From NCBI RefSeq assembly GCF_001046635.1, contig NZ_KQ130462.1, forward strand, positions 2,501-66,500: 64,000 nucleotides of DNA, read 5' to 3'. The translations under genes and the position numbers were made by a program. Numbering within the stretch: position 1 is the first letter of the stretch; every line of letters begins with the position of its first letter. This DNA comes from Novosphingobium barchaimii LL02 (GTDB taxonomy: Bacteria > Pseudomonadota > Alphaproteobacteria > Sphingomonadales > Sphingomonadaceae). The notes beneath the pieces are model-generated. The model worked only from the letters and a program-made list of their open reading frames with translations, searched no databases and was not told the DNA's origin. This document shows, piece by piece, positions 3,194 through 53,407 of the stretch.

Positions 3194-6100
3194 ATGAACC
3201 TTAGCCGCTATTTCGTCGACCGGCCGATCTTCGCCTGGGTCCTTTCGATCATCGTCATGATGGCCGGCATCGCCGGTATCCTGAGCCTTCCCGTTGCGCA
3301 GTACCCCGATGTCGCCCCGCCATCGGTGACGATCAGCGCCACTTATCCGGGCGCCTCGGCGCAGACGCTGGAGAATTCGGTCACGCAGGTGATCGAGCAG
3401 CAACTGACCGGTATCGACAACCTGCTTTACTTCTCATCCAGTTCGGACAGCTCCGGCTCGGCCTCGGTCACCGCGACATTCGCCAAGGGCACCGATCCCG
3501 ACGTGGCGCAGGTGCAGGTGCAGAACAAGGTGCAGCAGGCCAATTCGCGCCTACCCACCGAAGTGCAGCAGCAGGGCCTGACCGTCACCAAGGCGGGCGC
3601 GGACATGCTGATGGTCGTCGGCCTTTACGACGAAACCGACAGGACCAGCGCCAGCGATGTTGCCGATTACTTCGTCTCGAATTTCCAGGACGACCTGGCC
3701 CGCGTAAACGGCGTGGGCGGCGTGCGGGTGCTGGGTTCGCAATATGCCATGCGCATCTGGCTGGACCCGGCCCGCCTGATGGCGCGCCAGCTGATGCCAT
3801 CGGATGTGGAAAGCGCGATTTCCTCGCAGAACGTCGATCTTTCCGCCGGTCAGCTTGGCGCGCAGCCGCTGGCCAAGGGACAGATGCTGAATGCCGTGGT
3901 GAAAGCGAAGTCGCGCCTGCAGACCCCGGACCAGTTCCGCGCCATCGTCGTCAAATCGCTCAGCGATGGTTCGGTGGTGCGGCTTTCCGATGTCGCGACG
4001 GTCGAAATGGGCCAGGAAAGCTACGACGTGTCCGGCCGCATGGACGGCCACCCCGGCGCCGGCATCGCCATCGAGCTGGCGTCGGGCGCGGATGCGCTCA
4101 AGACGGTCGCACTGGTGAAGGCGCAGGTCGAGCAGATATCCAGGAGCCTGCCCGCCGGTTACAAGATCGCCTATCCGCGCGACACCAGCGAGTTCGTGAA
4201 ACTTTCCATCCACGAAGTGATCGAAACGCTGGTCATCGCGATCCTGCTCGTCGTGCTGGTGATGTACGCCTTCCTGCAAAGCTGGCGGGCAACTCTGGTG
4301 CCCGCGATCGCGGTTCCGGTGGTGCTGCTCGGCACGTTCGGCATGTTGGCGGTGCTGGGCTATTCGATCAACACATTGACGCTGTTCGCAATGGTGCTGG
4401 CGATCGGCCTGCTCGTCGACGACGCCATCGTCGTGGTCGAGAACGTCGAGCGCCTGATGCATGATGACAAGCTGAGCCCCTACCGCGCCACCGTGCGTTC
4501 GATGGAGGAGATCGGCTCGGCGCTTGTCGGCATCGCGCTGGTGCTTTCCGCCGTGCTGCTGCCGATGGCCTTCTTCGGCGGGTCCACCGGCGTCATCTAC
4601 CGCCAGTTCTCCGTCACCATCGTGGTGGCCATGGCGCTGTCGGTGCTGACCGCGCTGATCCTCTCGCCCGCGCTGTGTTCCACGCTGCTCAAAGCCCGCG
4701 ACCATGACGGTCATGATGCGCCGCCGGCAACCGGCCTGCGCGGCGCGGGACAGCGGCTCAAGACCCGGCTCGATGGCTGGTTCGGCGCCTTCAACCGCTG
4801 GTTCGACCGCATGACCGAGCGCTACGTCGATGCGACCGCCAGGGTCATCGCGCGGCGGCGGCTGTGGCTGGCGGTCTACGGCGTCATCATTGCCGCCGTG
4901 GTCGTGCTGTTCGTGCGCCTGCCCACCGGCTTCCTGCCCACCGAGGACCAGGGCGAGGTGATGATCGTCTACCAGCTGCCCGCAGGCGCCACGGCCGAGC
5001 GCACCGAGAAGGTCCGCAGCGAGATCGAGGCCGCGTTCAGGAGCGAAGGCGCCAACGTGGCCCATCTTTTCACCGTTGCCGGCTTCAGCTTCAACGGTTC
5101 GGGGCAGAACGCGGGCATGGGTTTTGCCAGCCTTGCTCCGTTCGAGGAGCGTTCTTCTTCCGATCAGTCCGCCACGGCCATTTCCGGGCGGCTGATGGGC
5201 AAGCTGTCGAAGATCCGCGACGCGCAGGTCTTCGTCATGACGCCGCCGGCGATCCAGGGGCTGGGCCAGTCTAACGGCTTCACCTTCCAGCTGCTCAATG
5301 CAAACAACATGGACCGCACGAAGTTCGTGGAACTGCGCGACAAGCTGATCGCCGCCGCCAATGGCGACGCCGCGCTCTCGCAGGTCCGCGCGTCGAGCCT
5401 GCCGGATACGCCGCAGTTCGACATCACGTTCGAAGATGCCAAGCTATCCGTCCTGGGCCTTACCGTGGCAAATGCCACCGACACGCTCAGTTCGGCTTGG
5501 GGCGGTACATACGTCAACGACTTCATCGACCGGGGCCGCGTGAAGAAGGTCTACATGCAAGGCGAGGCGTCCTCGCGAATGCTGCCTAGCGACCTCGACA
5601 AGTGGTTCGTGCGCTCCACTTCGGCGACGAATGCCGATGGCACGGGCAAGATGGTGCCGTTCTCGGCGTTCACCGCGATGAACTGGGAGACGGGGCCCAG
5701 CAGCCTTTCGCGCTTCAACGGACGCTCGTCCTTCGAACTGCAGGGCGACGCCGGTTCGGGCTACAGTTCGGGCGATGCGATGAAGGCAATGATCGCGCTC
5801 CAGCAGAAGATCGCGCCCGGCGCGGGCTATGCCTGGAGCGGGCTGTCCTACCAGCAGAACCAGTCCAGCGGGCAGGCGCTGTACCTTTATATCCTCTCGG
5901 TCGCCGTCGTGTTCCTGTGCCTTGCCGCGCTTTATGAAAGCTGGTCGGTGCCGCTGGCGGTGCTGCTGGTGATCCCGCTGGGCGTGATCGGCGCGGTGCT
6001 GGCGGTGGCGGTGCGCGGGCTGGAGAACGACATCTACTTCCAGGTCGGCCTGCTCACCACCATCGGCCTTGCCGCGAAAAACGCGATCCTCATCGTCGAA

Positions 6101-6409
6101 TTCGCCGAAATGGCCCGGCGGGACGGGCGCGACATGATCGAGGCCGCGCTTGAGGCTGCCCGCGTGCGCCTCAGGCCGATCATGATGACCTCGATCGCCT
6201 TTATCGCCGGCGTCGTGCCGCTGGCGATCGCGAGCGGGGCGGGCGCACAGGGACGTATCGCCATCGGCACCGCGGTGCTGGGCGGGATGCTGACCGCCAC
6301 GGTGCTCGCCATCTTCTACGTGCCGCTGTTCTTCGTCATCGTCGCCCGCGTGTTCCATCTTGGCGATGGCAAGACGGCTGCTCCCACCATGCCCGAGGAC
6401 AACGCCTGA
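3194..6409 (+). CDS. RND efflux inner-membrane transporter (AcrB/MexB, HAE1 family)
   Basis: Proton-driven multidrug pump of 1071 residues, close to the family length of 1030-1050. It starts with the typical MNLSRYFVDRPIFAWVLS and has the periplasmic PN/PC pore repeats. The proton-relay Asp pair of TM4 is in GLLVDDAIVVVENVERLM, and TM10-12 include GLAAKNAILIVEFA. A slightly longer loop (about residues 505-525, HDGHDAPPATGLRG) sits between the two halves. The gene lies between adaptor and outer-membrane factor with almost no gaps (4 nt before, 1 nt overlap after), so all three components come from one mRNA. The substrate cannot be read from the sequence. Confidence 0.96.
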   Translation: MNLSRYFVDRPIFAWVLSIIVMMAGIAGILSLPVAQYPDVAPPSVTISATYPGASAQTLENSVTQVIEQQLTGIDNLLYFSSSSDSSGSASVTATFAKGTDPDVAQVQVQNKVQQANSRLPTEVQQQGLTVTKAGADMLMVVGLYDETDRTSASDVADYFVSNFQDDLARVNGVGGVRVLGSQYAMRIWLDPARLMARQLMPSDVESAISSQNVDLSAGQLGAQPLAKGQMLNAVVKAKSRLQTPDQFRAIVVKSLSDGSVVRLSDVATVEMGQESYDVSGRMDGHPGAGIAIELASGADALKTVALVKAQVEQISRSLPAGYKIAYPRDTSEFVKLSIHEVIETLVIAILLVVLVMYAFLQSWRATLVPAIAVPVVLLGTFGMLAVLGYSINTLTLFAMVLAIGLLVDDAIVVVENVERLMHDDKLSPYRATVRSMEEIGSALVGIALVLSAVLLPMAFFGGSTGVIYRQFSVTIVVAMALSVLTALILSPALCSTLLKARDHDGHDAPPATGLRGAGQRLKTRLDGWFGAFNRWFDRMTERYVDATARVIARRRLWLAVYGVIIAAVVVLFVRLPTGFLPTEDQGEVMIVYQLPAGATAERTEKVRSEIEAAFRSEGANVAHLFTVAGFSFNGSGQNAGMGFASLAPFEERSSSDQSATAISGRLMGKLSKIRDAQVFVMTPPAIQGLGQSNGFTFQLLNANNMDRTKFVELRDKLIAAANGDAALSQVRASSLPDTPQFDITFEDAKLSVLGLTVANATDTLSSAWGGTYVNDFIDRGRVKKVYMQGEASSRMLPSDLDKWFVRSTSATNADGTGKMVPFSAFTAMNWETGPSSLSRFNGRSSFELQGDAGSGYSSGDAMKAMIALQQKIAPGAGYAWSGLSYQQNQSSGQALYLYILSVAVVFLCLAALYESWSVPLAVLLVIPLGVIGAVLAVAVRGLENDIYFQVGLLTTIGLAAKNAILIVEFAEMARRDGRDMIEAALEAARVRLRPIMMTSIAFIAGVVPLAIASGAGAQGRIAIGTAVLGGMLTATVLAIFYVPLFFVIVARVFHLGDGKTAAPTMPEDNA

Positions 6410-7815
6410 TGCGCCGTTCCCTGATCTCTCTCACAGCGCTCGCCGTTGCCCTTGCCGGCTGCAACATGGCGCCCAAATACATCCGTCCCGAAGCGGCCGC
6501 CCCGGCGGCATGGCCGCAAGGTGCAGCTTATGCCCCGGCTGAAGCGGGGGAGGCGGGGATGCCCTGGCGTACCTTGTTCGCCGATCCGCGCCTTCAGGCG
6601 GTGATCGAGACGGCGCTGGCGAACAACCAGAACCTTGCGGCCAGCCTGGCCAATGTCGCCTCGGCGCGGGCTCAGTACCATGTCGAGCGCTCGTACCAGT
6701 TGCCAACCATAGCCGCAGGCGCTGATGCCAGCGCGGTGCGGGGCCTCAAGTCCTCGGTGGGCGATACGCAGAGCTACAGCGCCAACGCCGGCTTCAGTGC
6801 GTTCGAACTGGACCTGTTCGGCCGCCTCAAGAACCAGAGCCGCGAGCAGCTCGAAACCTATCTCGCCACCGAGTCCGGCTATCGGTCTGCCCGGCTGACT
6901 CTGGTCGCAAATGCGGCCACGGCTTACGTCACGCTGGCCGCCGACCGCGATCTGCTGGCGATTGCCGAACAGACCCGGGCCAGCGGCCAGCGCTCGGTCG
7001 ACCTGACGCAGTCGCTTTTCAAGGCGGGACTGGCCGCTGCCGGAGACGTGGCTTCGGCGCGGACGGTGCTGGAGCAGGCCAACTCCGACGTCGCCTCCCA
7101 GACGACTCTGGTAGCGCAGGACCGCAATGCGCTGGAACTGCTTGTTGGCGCTCCGGTTGCGGATGCGCAGCTGCCCACCTCCATGGCGCAGCTGGAGACG
7201 GGCATCGGGCAAGTGCCGGCGGGGCTATCGTCGCAGGTGCTGCTGCAACGGCCCGACGTGGTCGAGGCAGAGCATGAGCTGCAGGCCACATACGCCCAGA
7301 TCGGCGCGGCGCGGGCAGCATTTTTCCCGCAGATATCGCTGACTTCTGCGCTGGGGCTTGCCAGCACCGCGCTTGCCAGCCTGTTCACCGGGGATGCCTT
7401 CAGTGCCAGCGGCACGGCGAGCGCCAGCCTGCCGCTGCTGGGAGGGGCCAACAAGGGCAATCTGGAATACGCCAGGGCGCAGCGCGAATACTACCTCGCC
7501 AGCTACCGGGGCACGGTGCAGTCGGCCTTCAGGGACGTGGCCGATGCGCTTGCCCGGCGCGGCACGATCACCGACCAGCGGGGCGCACAGGAGCGCCTCG
7601 TCGCCGCCGCCCGGAAAAGCTACAATCTGGCCGATGCGCAGTACCGCGCGGGCACCGATACCTTCATCAACGCCCTTGTCGCCCAGCGCTCGCTCTACGC
7701 CTACCAGCAGACCCGGGTGGCGACCGTGCTGGCGGACCTGACAAATAGAGTCGCCGTCTACAGCGCCATCGGTGCCGACGAATCGCTGGGAGAGGGCGCC
7801 CGCCCGTTCGACTGA
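6409..7815 (+). CDS. Outer-membrane efflux lipoprotein, NodT family
   Basis: TolC-like outer-membrane channel of 468 residues, third component of the RND pump. The signal peptide ends in a lipobox (LAVALAGCN). The rest shows the two OEP repeats with long amphipathic helices typical of NodT/OprM proteins (AVIETALANNQNLAASLANVASARAQY; FSAFELDLFGRLKN; QRPDVVEAEHELQATYAQIGAARAAFFP). The ATG overlaps the stop of the RND transporter (TGATG), which shows translational coupling. It closes the operon; the next intact gene starts about 480 bp away. Confidence 0.95.
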   Translation: MRRSLISLTALAVALAGCNMAPKYIRPEAAAPAAWPQGAAYAPAEAGEAGMPWRTLFADPRLQAVIETALANNQNLAASLANVASARAQYHVERSYQLPTIAAGADASAVRGLKSSVGDTQSYSANAGFSAFELDLFGRLKNQSREQLETYLATESGYRSARLTLVANAATAYVTLAADRDLLAIAEQTRASGQRSVDLTQSLFKAGLAAAGDVASARTVLEQANSDVASQTTLVAQDRNALELLVGAPVADAQLPTSMAQLETGIGQVPAGLSSQVLLQRPDVVEAEHELQATYAQIGAARAAFFPQISLTSALGLASTALASLFTGDAFSASGTASASLPLLGGANKGNLEYARAQREYYLASYRGTVQSAFRDVADALARRGTITDQRGAQERLVAAARKSYNLADAQYRAGTDTFINALVAQRSLYAYQQTRVATVLADLTNRVAVYSAIGADESLGEGARPFD

Positions 7816-7929
7816 GAGCCTGCTTCGAAAGTCGCGATTCTCGCGCGAAGTGGTGGCCGATTGAACTGCGTTAACCGCGGCGATGTGTGCATCTACCGCA
7901 CTGAAGCCGACGCGTAGAGGGCGTTCAAT

Positions 7930-8232
7930 GACAAACACCCACGGCAGGGATACCGACGAGGACGCCTACCCCCAATTCCATCCCGCCGCTGCGCGGTATC
8001 GCCGGGGCGGGCTTCAAGCAGGAACGCTTCGGGGCAGCTGCGGCATCGTCGATGTCACCGCCTGGGTGAAGCCGACCGGTTCGGCGGCCTTCGCCTGCCG
8101 GGCGGCGTGTACAACCTGCTCGACAAGACGTATTACAACACCCTCGATATTCCTGACAGCTTCACCGTACCGCAGCTTTGCTACAGCCAGCCGGGACGGA
8201 CCTGAAAGGCATCGATGATCCTGTCGTACTAA
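7930..8232 (+). pseudogene. Remnant of a TonB-dependent (probably heme) receptor, C-terminal end
   Basis: Decayed barrel end of a TonB-dependent receptor. Read across at least one frame change, the DNA encodes TDEDAYP (from 7949), then NSIPPLRGIAGAGFKQERFG, then GVYNLLDKTYYNTLDIP (from 8104) and YSQPGRT. This last frame meets a TGA at 8203-8205 but continues KASMILSY to a TAA at 8230-8232, as a receptor's final strand would. The pattern of asparagine- and tyrosine-rich strands ending in YSQPGR is typical of hemin/hemoglobin receptors. The intact heme oxygenase directly downstream supports a former heme-uptake pair. The N-terminal plug is absent. The receptor class is inferred. Confidence 0.7.
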
Positions 8233-46065: not shown

Positions 46066-46209
46066 ACTCAAGCATCTCGCAGAACCTCGTTGTGCATTGC
46101 ATCAACCATTTCATCGATTGTGGCTCGGACTGAGAATAATCATTTGTGAGGTGGTCCCGGTTTCCTGGACAGGATGCGAAGCCAATCCCGACGTGAGGAA
46201 CGGACGGGA

Positions 46210-46346
46210 ATGAAGACGACGAGACAGCGGTATTCTGCAGACTTCGAGGCGAAGGTGGCGTTGGAAGCGATCTGACGCTGGCGCGATTAGCGGGCAAGCA
46301 TGGTGTTCATCATACTATGATCGCGGCGTGGAACCGGCAGGCGATG
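46210..46346 (+). pseudogene. IS3-family transposase orfA remnant
   Basis: Broken N-terminus of an IS3-type OrfA. MKTTRQRYSADFEAKVALEAI ends at a TGA; the reading resumes in another frame as TLARLAGKHGVHHTMIAAWNRQAM, the helix-turn-helix of the same protein. A small deletion of about four codons (RGDL-like residues expected) caused the frame shift. No orfB is present. Upstream GGTGGTCCCGGTTTCCTGGACAGG (46151 on) may be what is left of the IS end. Confidence 0.75.
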
Positions 46347-46532
46347 ACTGTCTCAGGCGAGGCCACCGCAGTCGAATTGCATCTTTAAGATCCTAAGGAC
46401 ATCGCCGATCATTGCTGCTTTGCCTGGAACATGCTCGTCGAGCACCCCCGGGCGCATCATGTGCGTAGGTCTGCGCAAATGGGCGCATGCTTTCTGATCA
46501 ACGCTCGTTGGTATAGATCCCATAGTGTTAGC

Positions 46533-46596
46533 GACCGTTTGGGAATGGGCTGGTTCCGCATTCAAAATGCGCTCTTCTGCGCATTTTCAAACGGTC
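46533..46596. repeat. Nested inverted repeat (cruciform-forming)
   Basis: Outer arms GACCGTTTG (46533-46541) and CAAACGGTC (46588-46596) enclose inner arms AAAATGCGC (46564-46572) and GCGCATTTT (46579-46587). The 22 nt on the left between the arms (GGAATGGGCTGGTTCCGCATTC) can itself fold (GAATG/CATTC). The right arms abut exactly. This resembles the end of a mobile element or a REP/IS200-type hairpin. Confidence 0.65.
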
Positions 46597-46878
46597 TCTT
46601 AGTGGCCGCCCAAGAGACCGATGGCCGAGAGGCCTCCCCCAGTCTGGCGTGATTGACAGCCCGTCGGTGAATACAACCGAAAGCTGCGGCCGTTGCAGCA
46701 GGCCTCCATGCGTCTCGATCGTCCGACCAAGCTTCTCGGTGGGCATTTCTCACTACTTGCTTGAGATCATGAGCAGAAATACTCTTGGGAGTGCTGCATG
46801 GTCGCGCATTATCCCAATGGCTGATTCGTGCCGTATTCATCGCAATCGTCCCAGTGGCGATCAACACGGGGCTTCATA

Positions 46879-49398
46879 GTGCGGCAACAAAAGTTGAAAT
46901 CCGTAGCACTCGTTACGCGGAACTCTCTATCCTATCTAGAACACGTATTTGCGCTTAACGAAGCACGTAAGCCATTTGTAAACGTGCCTGATGATGATTA
47001 CGCGAATGCGTTGACCGGGCTGGATGTCGAGCGTTGTATTTCTCCGGATGAGGGAAGTGGGTGGTTTGCTGAAAATCACGCGTTGATCCACGACGAAATG
47101 CCAGCTCAAGTCACGTACACATCGGGTACAGAGGGAAAGCCTAAAGGCATCGTTCTCACTTACGCTAATATTGCGGATGCAGTGGAGCGGATCATCAGTC
47201 AAATGGAGCTGACCGCCGATGTCCGCGAGTATATCGGCGTACCGGTTACCTACAGTTTTGGTATTGGCCGTGTCCGTGCAGTCAGCGCGGTAGGAGGTCG
47301 ATCATATCTGCCGCCACGTGGGTTCGACCCTCTTGAGCTTTCACGAATGCTAGGATCAGGTGAGGTCAACGCCTTGTCTGCGGTCCCTACGCTTCTGCGG
47401 ATATTACTGAAAGCGCGGGCGGTCATCGGAGATGCCGGCAAGAATCTCCGATGGCTGGAAATCGGTTCGCAACACATGACGGGTGCCGAGAAGCGCGGCA
47501 TTCGCGAACTTTTCCCCAACGCGCGGATCGTTCAGCACTACGGCCTCACGGAAGCCTCCCGTAGTACCTTTCTGCAAATATCAGAAGCGGACGATGAAGT
47601 TCTCGAGTCCGTCGGCGTTACTGTCGGCGCGGGCGAGGTGGCCATATCGGCTGAGGGGAAGATCCGTATTCGTGGCCCACACGTTGCCCGTTGGCGTGTG
47701 GGCGCCGATGCGTTGATCGGCATGTGCGATCCCGATGGCTGGTTGGAAACCGGTGACGTGGGACACATCAAAGACGGCTATCTTTATTATGACGGCAGGG
47801 CGGACGACCTGATCAACACTGGAGGCGTGAAGATTAACCCTGACATGCTTGAGGCGCGTATTGGCGAACTTCTGGACCAAGCTGGCAGGATCGTGGTTAC
47901 CAAGGTGCCCGATACGCTTCGTGGTGAAGGTATTCTGGTTGCGACAGACGTGGCTGCCCTTAGCGTCAATCAGCTTTATTCCGCTTCGGCAGAGGCTCTG
48001 AAAGAGTTTGGGGTAGTTGTGGGCGACGCGCTGCACGTCAGGGTCCTCTCGACGCTTAAACGGACGGCCACTGGCAAACCAATGCGGCGCGTCCTGACCG
48101 ATGAATTTATCGAGGAGTCTAAAGCCGCTGGGGTTGGGACTGCGGCGGATCGGGCGGTTGAGGCATGGCCTTGTGACGTCGAGAACTTTTTCCGGGAATT
48201 TTTTCCCGGACGGCGTATCCGCAGAAGCGACAGCTTTGAAAGCATGGGAGGGGATTCCCTCAGCTACATCCAGTTTTCGCTTGGGTTTGAGGGGCGCTTT
48301 GGCACCCTGCCAGGAGGATGGGAATCACTGACGATCGAGCAATTGGAAGACAGTCCAGGAATTGGTCAAAAAGGGGGCTGGCTCAATCTGGATGCGGCCA
48401 TATTGACGCGCGCTTTCTTTATGATTTGTATAGTTGCTCTACACTTTGATACGTTTGTTTATAGCAAGAATTGGGGAGCCGCGTACTTCCTGTTCATGCT
48501 TTGTGGCTACAGCATCATGCGTTTTCAGTGGCCTGAAATCAGCCGGACCGGGAAAGTCAGCACGATATTTGGGACCGCACTGAATGTTGCTATTCCAACT
48601 GTGCTGGTGACTGGCGCAATGCAGATTTGGTCCAGGACTTTTGAGCTAAAACCATTACTTCTTATATCCAATTGGTTTGATCCGCATCAATACCAAGTGG
48701 CATATTATTATTTTGCGGAAATATATATACAATTAATCATCATTGTTTCTGCAATAATTTCATTTCCTGCCATAAGAAAATTTATCAAAATAAATCCTAT
48801 CACTTTCTGTGTCATCTTTCTAGTTTCGGCAACTGTAGTAAGCGCGGTAAGCGAAAAAATTTGGGATACGACTTACATCTATCATCGGACACCTATCTGG
48901 TATCTTTGGACGGTAGCCGCCGGTATGTTGATGGCGAGCGCGCACGATGTGAGAAGCCGTGTTCTGGCTATGGCGATTGTCAGCGTTGCTGTTGTAGAAC
49001 ATCATGGGTTCACCTCGGCTAGCGCCTATATATCGGGTGGCTCGGCACTACTGCTTTTTGGGACTTCGATTAGGGTGCCTTCTGCGGCAAAATTGATGAT
49101 ATCTGAGATCGCTGGCTCATCGATGTTCATGTATCTGAGCCATTGTCAGGTCTGGTCGCTGGTTATGCGGCTGTTTCACGGTCCAAGGCCGTGGATTGCT
49201 TTGAATGTTGCGATCGGGGTCGGAATTGTCTTTGCACACTCGTACCACTGGATCGAACGCAAGGTGCGGGCGTTCTTGATTAGCCGTGGCGAGGAGGGGG
49301 CCGCAGGCACTCTTCCGGACGCTCATCTGCACGAGCGGAGTATAGAGGGGCGGAAACGAGCAGTCGGCAATCAGCCTGCCCATGCTATACATTCATAG
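46879..49398 (+). CDS. Adenylation domain - carrier protein - membrane acyltransferase-3 fusion
   Basis: Unusual protein of about 839 residues. Residues 1-430 are an AMP-forming adenylation domain: P-loop-like TYTSGTEGKPKG (near 80-90), HYGLTEASRS, DGWLETGDVGH, DGRADDLINTGGVKINP and the C-terminal Lys region KRTATGKPMRR. The part before the P-loop is shorter than usual. Residues about 430-490 are an acyl/peptidyl carrier domain, with Ser460 in FESMGGDSLSYIQF as phosphopantetheine site. Residues about 505-810 are ten or so membrane helices with AT3 marks (RAFFMICIVALHFDTFV, FLFMLCGYSIMRF). It starts at GTG 46879, after an in-frame stop at 46822. AT-rich codon use unlike the flanks suggests transfer. 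It probably activates an acid, loads it on the carrier and passes it across or onto an envelope molecule. Confidence 0.85.
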   Translation: MRQQKLKSVALVTRNSLSYLEHVFALNEARKPFVNVPDDDYANALTGLDVERCISPDEGSGWFAENHALIHDEMPAQVTYTSGTEGKPKGIVLTYANIADAVERIISQMELTADVREYIGVPVTYSFGIGRVRAVSAVGGRSYLPPRGFDPLELSRMLGSGEVNALSAVPTLLRILLKARAVIGDAGKNLRWLEIGSQHMTGAEKRGIRELFPNARIVQHYGLTEASRSTFLQISEADDEVLESVGVTVGAGEVAISAEGKIRIRGPHVARWRVGADALIGMCDPDGWLETGDVGHIKDGYLYYDGRADDLINTGGVKINPDMLEARIGELLDQAGRIVVTKVPDTLRGEGILVATDVAALSVNQLYSASAEALKEFGVVVGDALHVRVLSTLKRTATGKPMRRVLTDEFIEESKAAGVGTAADRAVEAWPCDVENFFREFFPGRRIRRSDSFESMGGDSLSYIQFSLGFEGRFGTLPGGWESLTIEQLEDSPGIGQKGGWLNLDAAILTRAFFMICIVALHFDTFVYSKNWGAAYFLFMLCGYSIMRFQWPEISRTGKVSTIFGTALNVAIPTVLVTGAMQIWSRTFELKPLLLISNWFDPHQYQVAYYYFAEIYIQLIIIVSAIISFPAIRKFIKINPITFCVIFLVSATVVSAVSEKIWDTTYIYHRTPIWYLWTVAAGMLMASAHDVRSRVLAMAIVSVAVVEHHGFTSASAYISGGSALLLFGTSIRVPSAAKLMISEIAGSSMFMYLSHCQVWSLVMRLFHGPRPWIALNVAIGVGIVFAHSYHWIERKVRAFLISRGEEGAAGTLPDAHLHERSIEGRKRAVGNQPAHAIHS

Positions 49399-51382: not shown

Positions 51383-53407
<2,025 letters not shown>

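Follow-up and report, generated by a model that had tools for sequence, protein, structure and literature searches.

A putative self-charging AT3-type acyltransferase in Novosphingobium barchaimii LL02 combines adenylation, carrier and membrane domains in one chain

Results

A three-part chain encoded by one gene

Here, we describe a gene on the plus strand of a 64,000-nucleotide stretch of Novosphingobium barchaimii LL02 (contig NZ_KQ130462.1, positions 2,501 to 66,500 of the forward strand; this whole stretch is hereafter the window). The chain that it encodes is predicted to comprise an adenylation (A) domain, a carrier domain and a multi-helix membrane tail of the AT3 type, and an earlier note, made from the sequence alone, had proposed this order. 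Domain search, AlphaFold2, Foldseek and HHalign concur that the three parts are intact in one chain, and the motifs that the note had read are in place: TSGTEGKPKG from residue 81, GLTEAS from 222, ETGDVGH from 290 and the carrier serine at 460. Judged by sequence and predicted fold, the finding appears real, and the chain would be part of a widespread kind of self-charging AT3-type acyltransferase. The open reading frame (46828..49398) gives 856 amino acids from its first possible start; the start used here is a GTG whose alignment column, at 46879, is common to the window and seven relatives at the DNA level, and a more distant gene from Paracoccus has an ATG near the same column.

The A domain matches Pfam AMP-binding above the cut-off (3.6e-26) and carries the features of ANL adenylation enzymes, namely the P-loop TSG, the A5 motif YGxTEA, the A7 motif TGD and the A10 lysine. 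With the whole chain as query, Foldseek returned McbA, MatB, oxalyl-CoA ligase, salicylate ligases, EntE-EntB fusions and similar enzymes. Across the 46 chains aligned, none of the active-site residues varies in any of the three parts; those of the A domain include S82 G83 G86, Y221 G222, E225 A226, T291 D293, G306 R307 and G399 K400. The carrier is predicted from its GGxSL serine and from a helical carrier fold around Ser460 in the AlphaFold2 model; its invariant residues include F453, G457, G458, S460 and L461. The Pfam PP-binding match of the window protein lies below the cut-off (0.007; 17 bits against 20.8), as does that of locus L095, and the cut-off is exceeded in L093, L094, L041 and others (L and G numbers denote our loci and genomes).

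For the tail, the match to Pfam AT3 (PF01757) is likewise below the cut-off in the window (2.2e-4; 20.9 bits against 31). Orthologues with neighbours in frame score 31.6 (G001) and 31.7 (G738), which reaches it, and those in G757 (27.6), G002 (27.3) and G143 (24.8) stay below. AlphaFold2 modelled the whole chain from 46 rows with a predicted local distance difference test (pLDDT) score of 87.7 and a predicted template modelling (pTM) score of 0.53, the domains being well predicted and their mutual placing not; the tail alone reached a pLDDT of 93.8 and a pTM of 0.91. The best two PDB matches of the tail in Foldseek are human HGSNAT (probability 0.90-0.91, TMq 0.42-0.46, E 0.14-0.21). When the family tails were compared by HHalign with a pair of AT3 tails that Pfam identifies firmly (5e-29 and 6e-30), the probability was 91.9 and E 6.8e-7 over 265 columns, with the motif R and H in register; a nine-row tail alignment had given 27.7%, and 46 rows gave the 91.9%. 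The tail profile found nothing among PDB sequences at E up to 5, the likeness to HGSNAT coming from fold comparison alone. We assign the C-terminal helices to the AT3 type, as the earlier note had done. Tail residues invariant in the 46 chains include R511, H522, G543, F612, E614 and G682.

Table 1. Positions of the predicted features within the window
Feature	Position	Strand	Basis
Upstream stretch conserved at the DNA level with Novosphingobium copies	46705..46878	+	blastn, alignment
Whole gene, 839 amino acids, GTG start, TAG stop	46879..49398	+	Open reading frame list, DNA alignment, motif positions
Adenylation (A) domain, residues 1-415, clade-typical short N-terminus	46879..48123	+	Pfam, Foldseek
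A3 P-loop TSGTEGKPKG, residues 81-90	47119..47148	+	S82 G83 G86 invariant, 46 rows
Acid pocket span, S126 F127 G130 S167 E194 G196 H220 R228 S229	47254..47565	+	Mapped on EntF, E. coli K-12
A10 lysine K400	48076..48078	+	G399 K400 invariant, 46 rows
Predicted carrier domain, about residues 432-491	48172..48351	+	Model helices 434-441, 460-474, 486-491; Pfam PP-binding below cut-off
Ser460, predicted phosphopantetheine site in GGDSL	48256..48258	+	G457 G458 S460 L461 invariant, 46 rows
Short tether, carrier to first membrane helix	48352..48393	+	Ser-to-Arg distance in family
AT3-type membrane domain, residues 506-807, about ten membrane helices	48394..49299	+	Tail model, Foldseek, HHalign
R511-x10-H522, AT3 motif of membrane helix 1	48409..48444	+	Both invariant, 46 rows
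S748xxxY752, helix 9 motif	49120..49134	+	At least 90% conserved

The architecture is widespread and under purifying selection

A scan of genome contigs with a carrier-AT3 alignment yielded at least 537 relatives among 594 candidate stretches. Among the best 80, which were analysed, 75 have both the A domain and AT3 within a single open frame (query start at 260 or before for the A domain, query end at 690 or beyond for AT3); the five exceptions are three frames that start at the first bases of their contig (L056, L059 and L066), one split gene (L040) and one short match (L062). In plasmid records, tblastn at E 1e-30 gave four matches, in N. resinovorum pSA1 (73%), Neorhizobium galegae (61%), Paracoccus (51%) and Rhodococcus fascians (24%), and the copy of Neorhizobium galegae VafX2 is broken into two open pieces. 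The three-part architecture is widespread in Proteobacteria and Actinomycetota and is not unique to the window. To our search of the open-licence PMC literature, no description of such a chain came up.

The spread is patchy at closer range. The gene was found in 5 of the 195 genomes in the genus of L009 and in 12 of 298 at the family level (E 1e-40), where the matches in G001, G143 and G061 align into the tail, as does that in G185 with a longer frame, and the rest align mainly over the head. At the class level, one strict search for unfused heads (E 1e-60, a threshold that does not cover looser relatives) returned 1 of 385 genomes, the centre genome only. Viral contigs held no match for six peptide patterns, and spread by viruses was rejected on this ground. 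The three nearest genomes by rpoD (G738, G001 and G757) all carry the gene free of inner stops, at places not adjacent to the rpoD match. The ratio of nonsynonymous to synonymous change (dN/dS, by a Nei-Gojobori script) is 0.136 for G738, 0.114 for L009, 0.125 for G757 and 0.09 for L010, with synonymous change high for G757 and L010 and the AT3 part saturated for L010. These values indicate that the window gene is under purifying selection and, together with the intact homologues, that it is not decaying.

An acid pocket that lacks the aspartate of alpha-amino acid activators

We mapped the pocket positions from EntF and EntE of E. coli K-12. Heads of the window's kind, 41 in all, show the near-invariant code S-F-(G/A)-S-E-G-H-R-(S/T), the one exception being L039, with A at the fourth place. 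Eight of the 41 are sister heads of Sphingomonadaceae whose tails are different or have diverged. Position 235, which we take to be Asp in alpha-amino acid activators, is D in EntF and Ser, Cys or Ala in the heads compared, with Ser126 in the window. An alpha-amino acid is for this reason an unlikely cargo, and the activated acid is probably of another class, which weakens to that extent the suggestion of the earlier note that an amino acid might be transferred. Non-alpha amino acids and hydroxy acids may still serve, and E194, H220 and R228 suggest a polar acid.

A second clade of heads has the pocket (C/S)-Y-S-A-T-A-M-(A/P)-R in 12 of 13 sampled members, L077 deviating. In a tree of heads these 13 members lie on one side of a branch (100/99), the sister heads are grouped with moderate support (85/91), and L041 forms a long branch of unsure placement. 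Several Sphingomonadaceae loci (L094-L098, L100 and L101) combine the window's pocket code with other membrane tails: L094 and L095 have the same A-carrier head on firm AT3 tails, and L096, L097, L098, L100 and L101 have weak or no AT3 score and an R/K-x10-H in the tail. L098 has two carrier stretches by Pfam, and the tail of L093 can be aligned to that of the window at 36%. In L086, a protein (3846-7967) whose condensation, A, carrier and AT3 domains all score above the cut-off stands in tandem with a three-part gene, and L102 encodes, by eye, a condensation-A-carrier-AT3 protein, that is, a module like those of non-ribosomal peptide synthetases (NRPS) ending in AT3. Our reading of these loci is that one charging module has been joined to several transferases.

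Family tails lack the strict form of an acyl-CoA site motif

Conserved residues of AT3/TmAT proteins, including DxxR in transmembrane helix 1 (TMH1) and RxxR in transmembrane helix 3 (TMH3), line the acyl-coenzyme A (acyl-CoA) site, mainly around adenosine and pantothenate, in the consulted parts of PMC12423673, and the conserved Arg motifs are placed in that site or are essential in those of PMC12423673 and PMC9833829. We compared the family tails with 34 AT3-type controls judged by length and by eye to have no fused carrier, of which 30 have PF01757 matches and come from five genomes, the others being WecH, OpgC and neighbours in L023 and L075. For each of these 30 we took the best match to a profile built from 18 rows that had looked sound on inspection by eye, and all 30 were retained. 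Several controls from different genomes are near-copies of one another, and two, with 698 and 722 amino acids, are long and may be SGNH fusions.

The strict motif RxxR-x(1-3)-P is present in 30/34 controls and in none of the 46 family tails, nor in the four sister or NRPS AT3 tails or the five other carrier-fused tails. Similarly, an acidic residue at the Asp of the TMH1 DxxR occurs in 25/34 controls and 0/46 family tails, with 2/4 among the sister and NRPS AT3 tails and 0/5 among the others. In contrast, R-x10-H is kept in all 46 family tails and in 31/34 controls, where the three lacking it were counted as misses and the regular expression took the wrong place in L126. In the profile alignment, the two RxxR places hold R in 33 and 34 of the 34 controls against 6 and 21 of the 46 family rows. 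When any RxxR within a 60-residue stretch is accepted, it appears in 1 of 24 tails of the window's clade (L029), 1/4 sister AT3 tails and 0/5 other tails, against 30/31 controls. The strict motif thus appears clearly lost, as do Arg pairs in the clade of the window, and the loss in the remaining rows is partial. Absence of the strict motif is what would be expected if the carrier had replaced CoA, and it supports, without settling, a carrier-bound rather than a CoA-bound donor, as the earlier note had suspected. The distance from the carrier Ser to the TMH1 Arg is held at 48-59 residues in all 46 rows and is 51 in 25 of them.

Priming enzymes, surroundings and neighbours

Phosphopantetheinyl transferases (PPTases) were counted as PF01648 matches per genome. 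All seven genomes that carry the gene at 67% identity or more (G001, G002, G003, G143, G729, G738 and G757) have two, compared with 3 of 20 genus genomes without it, these controls being the first 20 listed of 190 (Fisher p 1.4e-4; 0.001 with only the five same-genus genomes). G061 and G167, which hold sister-type genes, have one each. In G143, the second PPTase gene (4135-4962 of L108) encodes ACPS and AASDHPPT_N domains and is found some 700 bp away from the three-part gene, after a glycosyltransferase and a polyketide synthase (PKS) gene.

In the window, the flanking genes tested encode a catalase, a LuxR-type regulator, a cold-shock protein, an rpoD-like protein and a glycoside hydrolase, which agrees with the remark in the earlier note that no biosynthetic cluster is at hand. 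Its description of the setting as AT-rich holds in a relative sense, the G+C content being 52.4% in the gene and 46.3% in the AT3 part against 64.3% in the whole window. The short N-terminus of the A domain is real and is common to the clade rather than peculiar to this gene; a missing N-terminus was rejected, given the shared GTG column and the seven of 32 clade loci with an uncut frame (L001, L003, L010, L021, L022, L030 and L037) in which a longer one is impossible. Upstream, blastn similarity to L009 begins at 46705 and to L010 at 46710, about 170 bp 5' of the start, and this stretch is likely the promoter or 5' region of the gene; no Rfam family reached the gathering cut-off in it. By eye, remnants resembling insertion sequences (IS) surround the gene, among them, on its 5' side, a transposase reading-frame remnant that contains stops (46180..46560). 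The rpoD-like gene of the window (51383..53407) has 94% identity in G738, 91% in G001 and 88% in G757 among the 195 genomes of the genus of L009. Since most of the genus genomes listed have two rpoD matches, the window gene could be the second of two sigma-70 copies and might lie on a secondary replicon.

No fixed neighbour common to the proteobacterial loci was found. Exopolysaccharide or sugar-nucleotide genes, assigned by Pfam, occur in 10 of the 43 proteobacterial loci whose main gene was called (L011, L013-L015, L022, L045, L065, L069, L075 and L086), a pattern rather than an unbiased test, as L013-L015 are near relatives, and likewise L065, L069 and L086. L023 has a second AT3 only, with no such gene, and no actinobacterial locus showed one. 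Genes for ATP-binding cassette (ABC) ATPases or binding proteins, in two clusters, lie no more than five genes away in 25 of 36 actinobacterial loci and in none of the 43 proteobacterial ones.

Discussion

We consider it probable that the gene encodes a one-chain acylation machine, in which the A domain charges its own carrier and the AT3-type tail transfers the acid to an acceptor on the outer face. In this scheme, the cytosolic A domain would use ATP to activate a small carboxylic acid, probably of a class other than the alpha-amino acids, and the acid would be loaded on the phosphopantetheine arm of the fused carrier at Ser460, itself primed by a host PPTase. Lying some 51 residues ahead of the Arg of the first helix, the carrier could then insert its charged arm into the pore of the AT3-type tail from the cytosol. 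There, H522 would assist in moving the acyl group to the outer-face acceptor, for which a hydroxyl group on a glycan or glycolipid, either exported or of the envelope, is the likeliest candidate. As far as membrane transfer, the route appears well supported by the anatomy of the chain, its parts, conserved active sites and purifying selection being read from sequence and predicted fold. The acid class is suggested by the pocket, the acceptor class by the neighbours of some relatives, and the topology of the tail by what is known of AT3. An envelope glycan, as the earlier note proposed, is plausible from the exopolysaccharide neighbours of those relatives; the window copy itself stands alone.

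Several points weigh against this reading. All functional claims for the chain rest on sequence and predicted fold, and no PDB match of the tail in Foldseek reaches E 0.001. The RxxR columns align poorly in the family, with many gaps and R at the second place in 21/46 rows; some RxxR is seen in 12 of the 22 more distant family rows, and once Lys is accepted as well, basic-xx-basic pairs occur in 13 of those 22 and in 9 of the 24 rows of the clade to which the window belongs, its own row being one of the nine. The TMH1 Asp, which the family tails have also lost, is dispensable in OacB in the consulted parts of PMC12423673, and those of PMC12423673 and PMC9833829 do not state which Arg holds adenosine. 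The gene-bearing genomes are bigger than most PPTase controls, so size may confound that comparison, and a single PPTase was counted in G061, the tail of which is 36% related. Finally, no functional neighbour of the window copy was found among the flanking genes tested, and 33/43 proteobacterial loci have no exopolysaccharide or sugar-nucleotide match, with probes that were drawn from the positive loci.

An unlikely alternative is that the protein is a tailoring or off-loading enzyme of natural-product synthesis, in which the AT3 tail would use the acid on the carrier to esterify a metabolite (polyketide, peptide or lipid) and not a surface glycan. The condensation-A-carrier-AT3 relatives in L086 and, by eye, L102 fit this idea, as do the type I PKS in Hydrogenophaga (L013) and the PKS near the gene in G143, which are 49% identical over about 1300 amino acids, and the NRPS-like protein in G143. 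Moreover, a ketosynthase, a type III PKS and a flavin adenine dinucleotide (FAD) enzyme lie beside the gene in L009 (10662-14072) and, in a different relative orientation, in G757 (L109, 5900-9301). However, no such biosynthetic genes are present among the window genes tested or, by eye, over 14.5 kb in G738; the L013 PKS is matched only in L013-L015 among the open reading frames of L001-L088, and it stands close to Wzy, Wzz and glycosyltransferase genes.

It seems rather improbable that the tail is an ordinary CoA-using AT3 fused to an A-carrier module, with the head serving another enzyme or making CoA thioesters. The heads do resemble acyl-CoA ligases among others, basic pairs are kept in part of the family, and the consulted parts of the review PMC9558356 favour acyl-CoA over acyl carrier protein as the AT3 donor. 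On the other hand, the tails lack the strict RxxR-P and the TMH1 Asp, all active sites are conserved jointly and the tether is near-constant. A role in metal or small-molecule uptake, in which the actinobacterial protein would make or modify a compound imported by the adjoining ABC transporter, is very improbable: it draws on the proximity of the ABC genes in Actinomycetota and on the annotation of these as iron transporters in plasmid records, and it is opposed by their absence so close to the proteobacterial genes, by the different pocket of that clade and by the iron label being annotation only, which NCBIfam does not confirm, its matches to the binding proteins all falling below the cut-off with 2-aminoethylphosphonate models as the best. 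That the gene is decaying or chimeric, as its low-G+C surroundings, the IS-like remnants seen by eye and the broken VafX2 copy might hint, was rejected in view of the open frame, the invariant active sites, a dN/dS of about 0.1 and intact orthologues in G738, G001 and G757.

The preferred reading, a chain that charges its own carrier and passes the acid on through its tail, has parallels in known systems. The Dlt system (DltA, DltC, DltB and DltD) also joins acid activation, carrier loading and a multi-pass membrane transferase, but it is spread over several proteins, uses D-alanine and relies on the MBOAT-type DltB, whereas the window chain appears to lack an alpha-amino site and has an AT3-type tail; lipid A glycylation by Alm similarly couples activation, carrier and acyltransferase in a Gram-negative, but with separate proteins, glycine and the LPLAT-type AlmG (both according to the consulted parts of PMC3783018). 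The Dlt-like logic that the earlier note saw in one chain stands as regards the three parts and the AT3 rather than MBOAT tail. AT3/TmAT proteins such as OafB, OatA, OpgC and HGSNAT have in common with the window tail the membrane fold, SxxxY and, in AT3, R-x10-H; they differ in that the window family lacks the strict RxxR-P and the TMH1 Asp and brings its own A domain and carrier. The fusion partners of AT3 named in the consulted literature are SGNH, alanine/serine racemase and NRF. EntE-EntB type pairs show the same head and carrier fold and no Asp at position 235, but they are soluble, act on aryl acids through other pocket residues and have no membrane tail.

The same order of three parts is seen in plasmid proteins of Rhodococcus and Mycolicibacterium (L004-L008; for example WP_230591409.1), which are annotated only as AMP-binding. 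They differ from the window protein in being 22-24% identical to it, in their longer N-terminus and in the ABC transporter nearby, and the three of these five that were sampled have the pocket CYSATAMAR. In these and further actinobacterial loci, the transporter comes with a 2-aminoethylphosphonate- or iron-like binding protein, which leaves room for a possible uptake-linked role there.

What is new here is the near-invariant pocket without the Asp, the loss of the strict RxxR-P and the association with two PPTases. It is tempting to speculate, with the balance tilted slightly against so broad a claim, that a branch of TmAT gave up CoA, that a ligase-charged, built-in carrier threads its pantetheine arm into the AT3 pore, and that a single conserved head, dedicated to one acid, came to be combined with several tails serving different acceptors. 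How AT3/TmAT proteins take up their donor from the cytosol and hand it over across the membrane is still being worked out, and a natural family with a putatively tethered donor makes this question testable. Moreover, such a chain would let a single gene decorate surface molecules with an acid, and the pocket code, together with the combinations of heads and tails, may offer a handle for mining envelope or metabolite decorations.

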